From assembly GCA_025936825.1 (NCBI GenBank), contig JAICSO010000002.1:558001-622000 (forward strand): DNA of 64,000 nucleotides, written 5' to 3'. Source of the stretch: Terriglobales bacterium (GTDB lineage: Bacteria; Acidobacteriota; Terriglobia; Terriglobales; Acidobacteriaceae). A model generated the notes under the pieces. That model had not been told where the DNA came from. It did no database searches and worked only from the letters and a program-made list of their open reading frames with translations. This document shows, piece by piece, positions 18,453 to 24,315 of the stretch (position 1 is its first letter; every line of letters starts with the position of its first letter). Both the position numbers and the translations under genes were made by a program.

Positions 18453-19799
18453 TTACGACTTCTCCGACTCGAGCGCGCGGATGTACTCGATGACCGACTC
18501 GCTCCAGCCATCGATGTGCGTCCATTTGCCGTAGCCGACGCCGTTCTTGTACGAAGCCACGTTGATCACGTAGCCCGACGGGCGAGGACGCCCGTCGCTC
18601 CACTTGCTGGGAAGCGGAGCCGGTACTGTGTCGTGCGCCTGCTCGTCGGTGATCACGATCAGGCGGTCATACTTCTCCTTGCGATTCAGTTCCTCGACCG
18701 CCTTACCGAGATAAGTCGCACCGTTCTGCTGCGAAGCATCGATCGCGTCGCGCAGTGCGAACCCCCGCCGAGCGGGTACCTCAACGAGATCATTGGAGAA
18801 AGAAAACACAGAAACCTTCTCTCCAATCTCACGTAGAAGTACCGCGAGGCCGTATGCCGCATCGGTCCGCTGCATCTCCGAACGGCGGGAGAGCGGCGCA
18901 GTCATCGAGCCGGAAACGTCCACCAGCACGATGGTCTTGCCCGGCAGCTTCTCTGCCGAGGCCACCGACTTCAGCATGGCCTGCTCGAGTGCCTCTTCCC
19001 ACTGCGGTGCATAACGCGCAGCAGCAAGGAAGCGGAACGGGAGCACACGCGCCGTGCTCATCTCGCGAAGAGCACCGAGCACGAGATCCTCGTTTACCCC
19101 AGCATCCTTCATGTTGCGAAGGTTGCGGAGAAGAGCAAGTGCTCCGAGCTTCTGTTCAGTGAGCAGCCGCTCCCATGCCTCCCGCTTGTCGGCGCCAGAG
19201 CTGAGAGCAACCTCCCAGGTGTCGGGCGTAGTCATGCGTCCCCAGATGAGGCGCTTCCACACGGCTGCCTGCGCCTCGTCGCGAGGCTTCGCGTGGCAGA
19301 GGAACAGCACGTCCCGCAGCTTGATGGGCCCGCCGCGGTCGTACTTGGCAAGCTGGTACTCATCGAACTTCGGGAACGCGGCCGCCAGCCCCTTCTTCAC
19401 CTGGCCGGAAAGAGGGACACGTCCGTCCTTCCAGTAGATGGCGACAAACTCGGCGAGTTCGTCGGCGCGCTGGATGACGGTGGCGAGCGTGTCGCTCACG
19501 AGGTGACGGTGCGTCTTGTGCCGCGCCATCTCACGAACGAGCAGAAGCGGGGCGTGACGCAGCTTCATCTTCGCGCGAGCCTCGAGGGCAAGCGCGGCCA
19601 CCTTCTCGGCCGCAACCTTCGGAACCAGCTCAGCAATGCGTCCGGCGATCTCGACTCCGTCCTCGTAGAACTGGCTTTCCCAGAGCAGGCACGCGAGAAC
19701 GGAGCGCCGCAGCTGCAGTTCCGTCGAGATGTGACGCGCGGGCGCGCCCTCGTGCGTGCGAGGTCCAAAGTTGAGGTTGAGTGTGTTCAGTCGGGCCAT
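18453..19799 (-). CDS. rsr: Ro60/Rsr-like TROVE domain protein with vWA domain
   Basis: N-terminal alpha-helical repeat region ending in ...VVIQRADELAEFV.../LRNLRNMKDAGVNEDLVLGAL, followed by vWA/MIDAS KTIVLVDVSGSMTAPLSRRSEMQRTDAAYGLAVLLRE and TDEQAHDT; TROVE family organisation. Confidence 0.85.
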   Translation of the reverse strand: MARLNTLNLNFGPRTHEGAPARHISTELQLRRSVLACLLWESQFYEDGVEIAGRIAELVPKVAAEKVAALALEARAKMKLRHAPLLLVREMARHKTHRHLVSDTLATVIQRADELAEFVAIYWKDGRVPLSGQVKKGLAAAFPKFDEYQLAKYDRGGPIKLRDVLFLCHAKPRDEAQAAVWKRLIWGRMTTPDTWEVALSSGADKREAWERLLTEQKLGALALLRNLRNMKDAGVNEDLVLGALREMSTARVLPFRFLAAARYAPQWEEALEQAMLKSVASAEKLPGKTIVLVDVSGSMTAPLSRRSEMQRTDAAYGLAVLLREIGEKVSVFSFSNDLVEVPARRGFALRDAIDASQQNGATYLGKAVEELNRKEKYDRLIVITDEQAHDTVPAPLPSKWSDGRPRPSGYVINVASYKNGVGYGKWTHIDGWSESVIEYIRALESEKS

Positions 19800-19921: not shown

Positions 19922-20264
19922 GGGCACGGCTTCAGCCGTGCCGATATTAATTGTCTTTTTGTCATTCCGAGCGAAGTGGGAAGGATTCGCCTGCGAACCC
20001 TCCCACAAGTCGAGGAACCAGCTTTTCCCGCCGGGGAATCAGGCGACGACGGTATTCGCGATGCTCTACCACTGAGCTACACGGCCGAAGCCATGGCAGG
20101 AGTCGAACCTGCGACCTTCGGGTTAGAAGTAACCGTAGTCTTCACCACCGGCGAATTGCAGATCCCTCGATCCACCAGACAATTCGCAAACGCGAACCGT
20201 CTGGCTTCGCTCGGGATGACATGTTCAAAAGGTGAAGGAAAGCGGCACGGCTGAAGCCGTGCCC
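19922..20264. repeat. Nested inverted REP-like elements flanking ncRNA 1
   Basis: GGCACGGCTTCAGCCGTGCC (19923-) and its inverse GGCACGGCTGAAGCCGTGCC (20244-), plus GTCATTCCGAGCGAAG (19961-) and CTTCGCTCGGGATGAC (20205-). Confidence 0.8.
20029..20153 (-). ncRNA. Y RNA-like ncRNA 1 with circularly permuted tRNA-like module
   Basis: Ends pair CGCCGG/CCGGCG; GACTACGGT/ACCGTCGTC. Inside, in transcript order: T-arm GCAGG-TTCGACT-CCTGC, acceptor stem CATGGC-[TTCG]-GCCGTG, D-arm GCTC-AGTGGTA-GAGC. Lies between rtcB and the Ro60 gene. Confidence 0.85.
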
Positions 20265-20361: not shown

Positions 20362-21591
20362 TCATCCCTTCACGCACACGACCTGGCGCAACGTGTGGAC
20401 TACGTCCACCAGATCGCGCTGCGCTTCCATCACGGCATCGATGGACTTGTACGCCATCGGTGTTTCGTCGATGACGTCCGCATCCTTACGGCATTCGACG
20501 CCGGCGGTTGCCTTGGCGTGGTCGTCCAGCGTGAAGCGGCGCTTCGCCTCCGCACGAGACATGGCGCGTCCGGCTCCATGACTACAGCTCATGAAGCTTT
20601 CTGGATTACCCTTGCCGCGCACGATGTACGAACGCGCACCCATGCTGCCCGGAATGATTCCCATGTCGCCCTCACGCGCACGGACTGCGCCCTTGCGCGT
20701 GATGAGCACGTTCTCGCCGTGGTGGTGCTCCCAGGTCACGTAGTTGTGATGGCAGCTAACAATTTCCACATTGGCTTCGAACGCCGGGACCTGTCCCGAC
20801 TCGCGCACCGCGGCGATGATGTTGCGCATCATCAGATCGCGGTTGGCGAGCGCGTAGTCCTGCGCCCAGTGCACTGCGCGGACATAGCCCTCGAAGTGCT
20901 CCGTTCCCTGCGGCAGGTACGCGAGGTCCTTGTCCGGCAGGTTGATCATCCACTGGCGCATGTCGTTCTTGGCCAGCTCGATGAAAAATGTGCCAAAGCG
21001 GTTCCCCACGCCGCGCGATCCCGAGTGCAGCAGGAACCAGACGTTCTCGTTCTCATCGAGGCAGACCTCGATGAAGTGGTTCCCGGTGCCGAGCGTTCCC
21101 ATGTGATTCACCCGCTGCGGATGATTCAGCTTGGGATACTTCTCGACAATCGCCTGATACGCCGGCTCCATCTTCGCCCACACGTCCAGGTGATGCGCCG
21201 GAGCATCGCGCCACGCGCCGCGATCGTTCTTGCCGCCGTTGTCAGTGCGTCCGTGCGGCACCGCCTTCTCAATGGCCGAGCGGATGCCGTGCAGGTTGTC
21301 GGGCAGATGGTTCGCGTGCAGAGACGTCTGCACCGCCATCATTCCGCAGCCGATGTCCACGCCAACCGCGGCGGGGATAATCGCGCCGCGCGTCGGAATG
21401 ACGCTGCCTACGGTCGCACCGATGCCCCAATGCACGTCGGGCATCGCCGCCACCCACTTGTAGATGAACGGTAGCTGCGCGACATTCAGCAACTGCTGCT
21501 TCGCCGCATCCTCGAGCTGGACACCCTTGGTCCAGGCCTTGATGGGGACCCCGGTTGTGGGCGTGATTACGTTGTAGGTTGTGTTGGTCAT
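20362..21591 (-). CDS. rtcB: RtcB family RNA-splicing ligase
   Basis: 409 aa; AAVGVDIGCGMMAVQT, MGTLGTGNHFIEVCLDE, LLHSGSRGVGNRFG, SCHHNYVTWEHH, MSCSHGAGRAMSR motifs. Confidence 0.97.
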   Translation of the reverse strand: MTNTTYNVITPTTGVPIKAWTKGVQLEDAAKQQLLNVAQLPFIYKWVAAMPDVHWGIGATVGSVIPTRGAIIPAAVGVDIGCGMMAVQTSLHANHLPDNLHGIRSAIEKAVPHGRTDNGGKNDRGAWRDAPAHHLDVWAKMEPAYQAIVEKYPKLNHPQRVNHMGTLGTGNHFIEVCLDENENVWFLLHSGSRGVGNRFGTFFIELAKNDMRQWMINLPDKDLAYLPQGTEHFEGYVRAVHWAQDYALANRDLMMRNIIAAVRESGQVPAFEANVEIVSCHHNYVTWEHHHGENVLITRKGAVRAREGDMGIIPGSMGARSYIVRGKGNPESFMSCSHGAGRAMSRAEAKRRFTLDDHAKATAGVECRKDADVIDETPMAYKSIDAVMEAQRDLVDVVHTLRQVVCVKG

Positions 21592-21615: not shown

Positions 21616-21915
21616 TTAAGCTGCTCCCTGTTCGTATTCAGCTGTTGCGATCTCGCGAACGAAGCCAATGTCCCGAGTTCGTAGTACGTTCCTCGTGCGG
21701 TAATCCGTGCAGTACAGCACATCCAGCTTCATCGGTCGCACGAATCCTCCGTAAGTGCAGGAAATCGAACGCTGAGCTTTCGCTCCGTACTGCACGTGCG
21801 CGTAGAAGCAGTCCGTGCAAATGGCGCTGGGCTTTGCCTTACGCCGAGCTCGAATGCGCGCAATCACGGGCTCAATAAGTATTCTGAACAGCAACGCGAC
21901 AAACAACCAAGGCAT
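21616..21915 (-). CDS. Small protein with N-terminal hydrophobic segment and CxxC / additional Cys
   Basis: 99 aa between rtcB and the AAA gene, same strand; CTDCFYAHVQYGAKAQRSISCTYGGFVRPMKLDVLYCTDYR. Confidence 0.7.
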   Translation of the reverse strand: MPWLFVALLFRILIEPVIARIRARRKAKPSAICTDCFYAHVQYGAKAQRSISCTYGGFVRPMKLDVLYCTDYRTRNVLRTRDIGFVREIATAEYEQGAA

Positions 21916-21932: not shown

Positions 21933-23182
21933 TTAGATCAGGACGACCACATCCTCGTGTTCCGTCCTTCTGCTTCCCTGCTCCAACTGCAACAATCTTC
22001 CCTGAAACTCAGCCATCGTTTCGGCCGAGCGCGACGCTTCGACAAACTCGCGTGCCTCGCCGTCGGATGATTCCGGAAGAAATCGTCGATACAACTCAAC
22101 CTTCTGGCGATCCGTGGCCTTACCCAGGTATAGCTTGTAATCAATGCGGCCGGGACGCAGCAACGCCTCGTCCAGCTTCTCGATGTGGTTCGTAGTCATC
22201 ACGAACAGCACACCGGTCGGGGCGTAAAACCCGTCGAGCACATTCAGCAGGCCAGAAAGCGTAACCGTGTTCTGCGTCGACGAGTTATCCTTGCCTGCTG
22301 CGGAGCTTCCGCTTGCAGCAGACTTCGCATCGACTCGCGCCTGACTGCCTTTTATGCAATCAACGTCCTCGAACAGGAGGATCGACTTGGGCGGCACCTG
22401 GTTGACCGCGTTCATCAGCGTGCGATCATTGAACTCGGTCAAGTTGCAGGTGTAAATCGAGAGTGCAAAGTGCGCGGCCACAGCCGAGACCAGCGATGTC
22501 TTCCCTGTCCCCGGCGGTCCATAAAACAAATAGCCGCGGTGATACGGTACGCCCAGGCGCTGATAACGAAGCTTCGACCTGTGAAACCTGCTTATGTCCT
22601 CCAGTAAATGCTCCTTCTCTCCGGGCTCCAGGACGACTGAGTCCAGCAGGCGTGCCGAGTAGCCCTGCACCCAATCCCAACCATCGTTGAACGTGTACAG
22701 ATACGACTGCACTCCCAGACGCTTGTTGTGGCACTGCACAACATCGTTGACGAAACCCTGCAGGACTCCACGCTTCCTGCCCAGAGTTCGAAACGTGAAC
22801 GACTCAGAGCGGCGAGTTGCATACCTTTCTGAAGGCTCAGTTCGCGAGAACCAGACTTCGAACGGACGCCTGCCGTACCAGAACCAGTGCTTCCCTGGCG
22901 CCGGATCATCGCGATGCGCTCATTGCGCAGCGTGGTGTCCAGATCCAGGTTGCGGATACGCGCGAGAAACCTCTGCTCCAGAAACCACTCTTTCACCCAA
23001 ACGAACGCCGCGTCGTCATCGGTGACCGTGATCAACATCGTGGTCTGCCGAATGATGCAGTACCAGATAGCTTCCGGCACGCTGCGCAGATACACGCTGA
23101 GCCCGCCGATGATCATCAGGAACAGACCGCCCGACGCAAACGCGTTCTGGCCGGTCAATAGGTTTTTCAGCAAATCGAACAT
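21933..23182 (-). CDS. BCS1-like AAA ATPase, apparent single-base frameshift near 22896-22910
   Basis: N-terminal part MFDLLKNLLTGQ...FVWVKEWFLEQRFLARIRNLDLDTTLRNERIAMI in one frame; continuation PAPGKHWFWYGRRPFEVWF...YLFYGPPGTGKTSLVSAVA...LLFEDVDCIKG in another (BCS1_N then Walker A/B). Confidence 0.8.
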
Positions 23183-23254
23183 CTTGCTCTTTCTAACCGG
23201 CAGAGCCGGAGTAAAGTTTTCGCGGGCGAGGGCGCCCGCGCCACACAACAAACT

Positions 23255-23416
23255 CGCCGGGGAACCGGCGAGAAGAGTAGACTCGGGGCGCGATTTCTCC
23301 TGGCACTTTGTGCATCGAGGCTACGCCTCTGTCCCAGAAGCTCTGATCCCCGGCAGGGCCGCCGCCCTGCACGTCTTCATTTGGCGCGAAGTATCCCTTC
23401 TCTTTCACCACCGGCG
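23255..23416 (-). ncRNA. Y RNA-like ncRNA 4 (no obvious tRNA module)
   Basis: Ends pair CGCCGG/CCGGCG and GAGAAG/CTTCTC; carries GTGGTG-N9-GGATACTTC and CGCCGGTTCCCC; internal hairpins GCAGGGC-GGCG-GCCCTGC and GAGGC-GTA-GCCTC. Intergenic between the methyltransferase and AAA genes. Confidence 0.65.
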
Positions 23417-23453: not shown

Positions 23454-23996
23454 CTACTTGCCATCCCAACCAACTGCATCCATTACTGGTGTCAAGACTT
23501 CGCCACGCACTTCGTGCAGCATTTCTCTTAACGGCAGCAATGGTGCATTTCCCGCCAACTGTCGCGACATCAACCGATGCGCGAGTACAACGTTCACTGC
23601 CGCACTCAGGTTCAAGCAGAAGTGCGCTGGAATATGTACGAACCGGTGACACATTCGCCGAGTCACTTGCGGCACTTTGCCGTCCTCCGGCCCGAATACG
23701 TAAACAGCGTCTTCCGGATGTTCAAACGTCGTCAGAGGCTCGCTTTGGTCATACACTTCCACACACACCGGCGTGCCTTCGGTGAACAGATCGAACGGCC
23801 GCTCATGATTCATCAACTGGACGCTCTTGTATCCCTTCATGCGCTCTTCCCGCGGAAGGCGGTCGTATTGGGATAACCGAATGCGCGAGCCCGTCCATAC
23901 CAGGGATTCCACGCCGAAGCACGAACACGCGCGAATCGTCGCACCCACGTTGTGCGGGAACTTCGGATTAATCAGCACTACACCTGGCGCATGCAT
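23454..23996 (-). CDS. SpoU/TrmH-family RNA 2'-O-methyltransferase
   Basis: INPKFPHNVGATIRACS, YVFGPEDGKVPQVTRRMC, FCLNLSAAVNVVLAHR are the three SPOUT motifs. Confidence 0.9.
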   Translation of the reverse strand: MHAPGVVLINPKFPHNVGATIRACSCFGVESLVWTGSRIRLSQYDRLPREERMKGYKSVQLMNHERPFDLFTEGTPVCVEVYDQSEPLTTFEHPEDAVYVFGPEDGKVPQVTRRMCHRFVHIPAHFCLNLSAAVNVVLAHRLMSRQLAGNAPLLPLREMLHEVRGEVLTPVMDAVGWDGK

Positions 23997-24056
23997 ACGA
24001 ATGTCCCTCACGTACGCGGACAAGTATGTCCGACCCACACAACACGATCAATCAAT

Positions 24057-24165
24057 GGTCAGGGAACAAGCGGTCACGGCAGGGCTTTCGCCCATGGGGA
24101 TTCGAACCCCGCAGCCCGAAGGCTGTTCTGCCAGAAGAAGTATCCGTAACCAAACACCACTGACC
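24057..24165 (-). ncRNA. Y RNA-like ncRNA 2 with degenerate tRNA-like module
   Basis: Ends pair GGTCAG/CTGACC; inner helix GGTTACGG/CCGTGACC; internal CAGCC-[TTCG]-GGCTG, T-arm GGGG-TTCGAAT-CCCC, GGGC-[GAAA]-GCCC. Confidence 0.8.
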
Positions 24166-24244: not shown

Positions 24245-24315
24245 GCTGGGGGGAATGAACGACAGCGGTATTTGTCGAGTTCCAGTCGAAGTAACCGCAG
24301 CCTTCGCCACCCAGC
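24245..24315 (-). ncRNA. Y RNA-like ncRNA 3, compact, no tRNA module
   Basis: Ends pair GCTGGG/CCCAGC; inner helix GCGGT/ACCGC; carries GTGGCG-N8-GGTTACTTC and CGTTCATTCCC. Confidence 0.75.

Follow-up and report, generated by a model that had tools for sequence, protein, structure and literature searches.

A probable bacterial Y RNA with a tRNA-like core upstream of the Ro60 orthologue gene in a Terriglobales genome

Introduction

Which RNA, if any, is encoded at positions 24057-24165 of the Terriglobales DNA analysed here (a stretch of 64,000 nucleotides, hereafter the window), and what might it do next to genes for the Ro60 orthologue Rsr and the RNA ligase RtcB? A first-pass annotation, which named no strand, had described this segment, here called Y2, as a tRNA mimic and a diverged relative of a neighbouring candidate, ncRNA1, and had overlooked the Y RNA identity of the Rsr/RtcB locus, a D-arm-like hairpin, and two further Y RNAs. 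Vertebrate Y RNAs have a Ro60-family protein partner and a terminal stem, features in which Y2 would resemble them, but they are without a tRNA-like domain, and the similarity is only remote. Most knowledge of bacterial Y RNAs comes from Deinococcus and Salmonella, and little is known of their partners beyond PNPase. Two papers (PMC8394870, PMC7790460) describe them as combining a basal stem that tethers them to Rsr with a tRNA-like domain, and report that YrlA is modified by DusA and TruB; in the same papers and in a third (PMC8058203), the Y RNA of Deinococcus radiodurans is described as tethering PNPase to Rsr and changing the substrate choice of this nuclease.

Results

Read on the minus strand, from 24165 to 24057, the segment gives the RNA GGUCAGUGGUGUUUGGUUACGGAUACUUCUUCUGGCAGAACAGCCUUCGGGCUGCGGGGUUCGAAUCCCCAUGGGCGAAAGCCCUGCCGUGACCGCUUGUUCCCUGACC. 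All the elements previously named are present in it (GGUCAG/CUGACC ends, CAGCC-UUCG-GGCUG, a T arm CGGGG-UUCGAAU-CCCCA, and GGGC-GAAA-GCCC; Table 1), and every one of them appears in the predicted minimum-energy fold, whose energy of -48.2 kcal/mol was not reached in any of 200 shuffles (mean -36.6, z = -3.25). Two matches to the pattern GGTTCGAANCC exist in the window, one in Y2 and the other in a genuine tRNA-Asp gene, where 0.2 would be expected. Rfam, at gathering thresholds, reports tRNA-Asp only for the whole window, and a search at Y2 for a promoter or terminator that would account for independent transcription found none.

Table 1. Y2, its structural parts, and the neighbouring genes and Y RNAs (positions in the window).
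Feature	Positions	Strand	Evidence
rsr, Ro60 orthologue (TROVE + vWA)	18453-19799	-	Pfam TROVE 4.7e-17, vWA_Ro60 1.3e-6
YrlA-type Y RNA (ncRNA1): T arm, sealed acceptor, D arm	20027-20155	-	Rfam RF02553, 54 bits, E 2e-10, match 20037-20148
rtcB RNA ligase	20362-21591	-	Pfam RtcB 2.6e-130
Fourth Y RNA, longer inner module, no T arm	23255-23416	-	R1 40.3 bits, E 1e-5; E 7e-5 in whole genome
SpoU-family RNA methyltransferase gene, directly downstream of Y2	23454-24038	-	Pfam 3.2e-16
Y2, bacterial Y RNA (probable)	24057-24165	-	109 nt; 113.6 bits with model R1; related Terriglobia have homologues upstream of rsr
Y2 closing basal stem, 5' strand GGUCAG.GG	24157-24165	-	Partner CC-CUGACC 24057-24064; helix 1, 99% of cells paired, 7/8 pairs with double changes
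Y2 inner basal stem GGUUACGG (24144-24151), then conserved AUACUUC	24137-24151	-	Helix 2, 96% paired, 7/8 pairs with double changes
Y2 D-arm-like hairpin UUCU-UCUGGC-AGAA	24126-24139	-	4 bp; 86% of cells paired; GG in loop region in 26/28 homologues; moderate support
Y2 UUCG-capped hairpin CAGCC-UUCG-GGCUG	24112-24125	-	Double changes in 5/5 pairs; 94% paired
Y2 T arm, loop UUCGAAU	24095-24111	-	95% paired; double changes in 3/5 pairs; UUCRANN loop in 25/28 homologues
Y2 GGGC-GAAA-GCCC hairpin	24082-24093	-	Close relatives only; letters in about 10/28 homologues; no compensatory change
Y2 inner basal stem, 3' strand CCGUGACC	24072-24079	-	Covariation of helix 2
Y2 closing basal stem, 3' strand CC-CUGACC	24057-24064	-	Covariation of helix 1

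The pairing of Y2 is maintained, with extensive compensatory change, in 28 distinct homologues. In an alignment fitted to the Y2 structure, which favours that structure, pairing holds in 95% of the cells, both sides have changed in 24 of the 33 pairs, and cells with a double change number 138 compared to 38 in shuffles, a count that none of 500 shuffles reached. When the pairing partner is slid along as a control, paired cells fall to about 40-54%, and a MAFFT alignment of 12 sequences gives the same picture (12 pairs with a double change, 0/500 shuffles). On this comparative evidence, the predicted closing stem, inner basal stem, capped hairpin, and T arm are strongly supported. The homologues also carry what would be expected of a bacterial Y RNA, with ends paired in a long basal stem (double changes in 14 of the 16 pairs of helices 1 and 2), and of a tRNA mimic, with a UUCRANN T loop on a stem of 4-5 bp (25/28), and Y2 indeed mimics tRNA in the same sense as bacterial Y RNAs do. 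A pseudogene of a tRNA or tmRNA in decay, or a set of chance hairpins, might be invoked for a sequence with an almost flawless tRNA T arm, but the compensatory changes in five helices across the 28 homologues, the drop in pairing upon sliding, and the rsr-specific location make this hardly conceivable, and we consider such a reading already refuted by the covariation.

The expectation that the hairpins of Y2 be kept in orthologous loci is borne out for the hairpin at the UUCG position and for the T arm, but not for the GAAA hairpin, which is found in close relatives only. The latter had been proposed to be the counterpart of the sealed acceptor stem of ncRNA1, a proposal that finds no support in this form, as this hairpin is absent in most homologues (present in about 10 of 28) and never covaries, while the hairpin at the UUCG position occurs throughout. 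Also contrary to the first-pass annotation, which recognised no D arm, a hairpin of 4 bp whose loop bears GG (UUCU-UCUGGC-AGAA) sits 5' of the UUCG hairpin. Its consensus in the 28 homologues is UUCN-NNNGGY-N'GAA, with 86% paired; covariation in this stem is limited because the stem uses an invariant UUC, and one relative, L040, changes it from UUCU/AGAA to UUCG/CGAA. The GG is in the loop of 26 of 28 homologues, against 18.5 expected in shuffles, and none of 5000 shuffles reaches 26, a comparison in which relatedness is not controlled. Two distant relatives that are without the T arm (L027 and L053) are also without this GG, as would be expected if the GG makes a D-loop/T-loop contact, two cases being few. 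The reading of the hairpin at 24126-24139 as a D arm is moderately supported, and would place D arm, capped hairpin, and T arm in the order of a tRNA, with the basal stem replacing the acceptor stem. The capped hairpin was also considered as an anticodon arm, a candidate that we rejected, as most of its loops are tetraloops and no variable region is present.

A DNA search identified Y2 homologues in two genomes of the same family, in both cases just upstream of rsr, and a scan for rsr yielded 80 named loci, foremost from Acidobacteriota (Terriglobia), then from Alphaproteobacteria and others. The pattern UGGYG...CGGWUACUU...CCC, combined with a closing stem, revealed that most loci from Acidobacteriota have between one and five Y RNAs upstream of rsr, with the CGGWUACUU element found in all the Y RNA types of these loci. 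A search of 400 Terriglobia genomes with R1, a covariance model built from Y2 and 11 homologues, took no account of rsr and returned 56 matches in 38 genomes. Rsr is encoded in 36 of these 38 genomes, as opposed to 44 of the 400 overall (Fisher p = 5e-41, relatedness not controlled), and 52 of the 56 matches share contig and strand with rsr, each lying 29-4258 nt upstream of it. The eight genomes with rsr and no R1 match would be accounted for by Y RNAs of other types, or by matches that are weaker. When R1 was applied to the window and 75 loci, 204 matches were obtained and, in the rsr-oriented loci, all but one low-scoring antisense match were on the rsr strand.

In the window, Y2 lies about 4.3 kb upstream of rsr on the same strand, with rtcB in between, and its 3' end is 19 nt before the start codon of the SpoU-family open reading frame, also on the same strand. 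Such proximity would suit a cis-acting leader of this gene, in which Y2 would be a tRNA-like operator bound by the methyltransferase. However, the 13 related rsr loci searched, some of which are cut by contig ends, yielded no homologue of the SpoU gene, and the linkage is therefore not conserved; Y2 homologues are kept in SpoU-less loci (including G030, G080, G022, G034, and G062), where the constant neighbour is rsr, and the closing stem joins both ends of Y2 into a self-contained RNA. Due to the absence of the SpoU gene from the related loci searched, we reject the leader, which appears very improbable, in favour of a Y RNA.

Four Y RNAs are found in the window, all on the minus strand and upstream of rsr. 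The YrlA-type RNA sits between rtcB and rsr, and its RF02553 score is below the gathering score of 69; because ncRNA1 matches YrlA in Rfam and is also detected by the Y2-based model R1 (39.8 bits), the earlier view of Y2 as its diverged relative stands. Relatives, too, repeatedly have Y RNAs of more than one type in tandem, as in loci L021, L024, L026, L064, and L071. Short Y RNAs resembling the third one, minimal in size (71 nt, no T arm, 24245-24315, minus strand; Y scaffold with a 6-bp closing stem, R1 25 bits, E 0.03), were seen in L026, L027, L050, and L051, some with an anticodon-like loop. The inner module of the fourth is unusually long, and this RNA is located directly upstream of an AAA ATPase gene (21933-23251, minus strand) that appears to be split over two frames, owing to a frameshift or a sequencing error; the ATPase homologue in L020 is in a single frame, also beside Y RNAs and rsr. 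A 99-aa open reading frame with no Pfam match (21616-21915, minus strand) is near rsr also in L019, L022, and L024.

Which known Y RNA, then, does Y2 most resemble? With YrlA (RF02553), it has in common a gene near rsr/rtcB, paired ends that form a basal stem, and an inner tRNA-like domain with a canonical T arm, and the YrlA-type RNA of the locus shares its basal-stem scaffold. The order of the arms differs, however, being T arm, sealed acceptor stem, and D arm (that is, permuted) in YrlA, and D-arm-like hairpin, capped hairpin, and T arm, with a dispensable GAAA hairpin, in Y2. No RF02553 match was obtained at 24057-24165 up to an E-value of 5, and assignment of Y2 to YrlA was rejected both by the model and by the arm order, as no D arm is found 3' of the T arm. 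With the Y RNA of D. radiodurans (RF01053), Y2 shares a basal stem followed by CGG-UUACUUC, and a T arm immediately preceded by a small capped hairpin and followed by the 3' strand. For RF01053 Rfam also draws an inner pairing between UACUUC and a GAAGU located 3' of the T arm, which is not possible in Y2. Y2 is the best RF01053 match in the whole 6.5-Mb genome, yet a weak one (23.2 bits, E 0.25, against a gathering score of 80), and its close homologues show no match to this model even at an E-value of 1. Membership in RF01053 was rejected on these grounds; the plan of Y2 is closest to that of the Deinococcus Y RNA, though Y2 is not one by the model. Deinococcus gobiensis also has the Y scaffold at its Rsr locus, where R1 scores 51.9 bits at a site some 38 nt upstream of the TROVE gene. 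A CRISPR array with CRISPR-DR9 repeats (L143:10797-11188) was observed near the rsr locus on plasmid P2 of this species.

The YrlA-type RNAs of related Terriglobia offered an observation of their own. Between ACUUC and the T arm they carry a 5-bp stem with a 7-nt anticodon-arm-like loop (UUCGN-NUNNNNN-N'GGG), as seen in L021:14104-14233, L024:8425-8553, L026:11687-11821, L054:6140-6271, L058:6315-6446, L064:5589-5715, and others. All 14 such loops seen have a U at the U33 position (e.g. CUGUUAA, CUCAUAA, CUGCUAA), and a variable-loop-like stretch follows. With their sealed acceptor of up to 7 bp and their D arm, these RNAs amount to complete circularly permuted tRNAs; the copy in the window, at 20027-20155, is without a clear anticodon-like arm. 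ARAGORN called 16 of 18 rotated YrlA-type relatives as tRNA, but still called 536 of 900 controls in which the anticodon segment was shuffled, and such calls alone are therefore no evidence for an anticodon arm.

Discussion

Taken as a gene for a bacterial Y RNA, with a basal stem that would be bound by Rsr and a tRNA-like core that would recruit or block an elbow-recognising protein, Y2 is in our opinion very probably explained. It is a known kind of RNA, in a variant missed by the public RNA-family library, and its identity and predicted secondary structure are shown by comparison of homologous sequences. Our literature search for "permuted tRNA" and "Y RNA" together found no paper; because primary surveys of Y RNAs were outside this search, novelty with respect to them is uncertain.

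It is possible to envision how Y2 might work. Its paired ends, together with the conserved ACGGAUACUUC element, would form a stem bound by the neighbouring Rsr (Ro60) ring protein, as suggested by synteny and by the scaffold common to the YrlA-type RNA; the inner basal stem and AUACUUC, common to the Y RNAs of these loci, are presumably what Rsr binds. The inner part would fold into a small core resembling a tRNA, with its arms in the usual tRNA order and the Rsr-binding stem at the place of the acceptor stem. If Y2 is expressed and bound by Rsr, as we infer, this core would most likely recruit or block a protein that recognises the tRNA elbow, perhaps PNPase, the partner known from Deinococcus, or else an enzyme that modifies tRNA, for instance TruB, and Rsr and Y2 could then handle damaged or structured RNA next to RtcB-based repair.

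Alternatively, the core might not tether an effector to Rsr at all, and might rather act as a decoy for tRNA-cleaving nucleases (a competitive inhibitor) or as a sensor of tRNA damage. RtcB is encoded at the locus, and PMC7790460 raises a decoy or sensor possibility for YrlA, whose operon is induced after tRNA cleavage while YrlA itself is uncleaved. The capped hairpin of Y2, however, is without an anticodon-like 7-nt loop, with UUCG or GNRA tetraloops in most homologues, so that an anticodon nuclease would have little to recognise. We consider a decoy or sensor unlikely and favour the tethering of an effector to Rsr.

The four Y RNAs of the window may have different roles, and the specialisation for different tRNA-binding enzymes that the first-pass annotation suggested is likewise a conjecture. 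In a tentative extension, to which we give somewhat less than an even chance, the Rsr loci of Terriglobia would represent a Y RNA toolkit in which a common Rsr-binding scaffold carries exchangeable inner modules, be they complete circularly permuted tRNAs, mimics of the tRNA elbow in unpermuted order like Y2, or minimal hairpins, and each module would recruit a different tRNA-handling protein to one and the same ring. This one locus, whose four Y RNAs differ in inner architecture and one of which, Y2, is preserved through compensatory change, would let the question of what Y RNAs tether be addressed directly by comparing pull-downs. Our results suggest that the Y scaffold supports two topologies of tRNA mimicry, one permuted and one non-permuted, the latter being missed by current RNA-family models.
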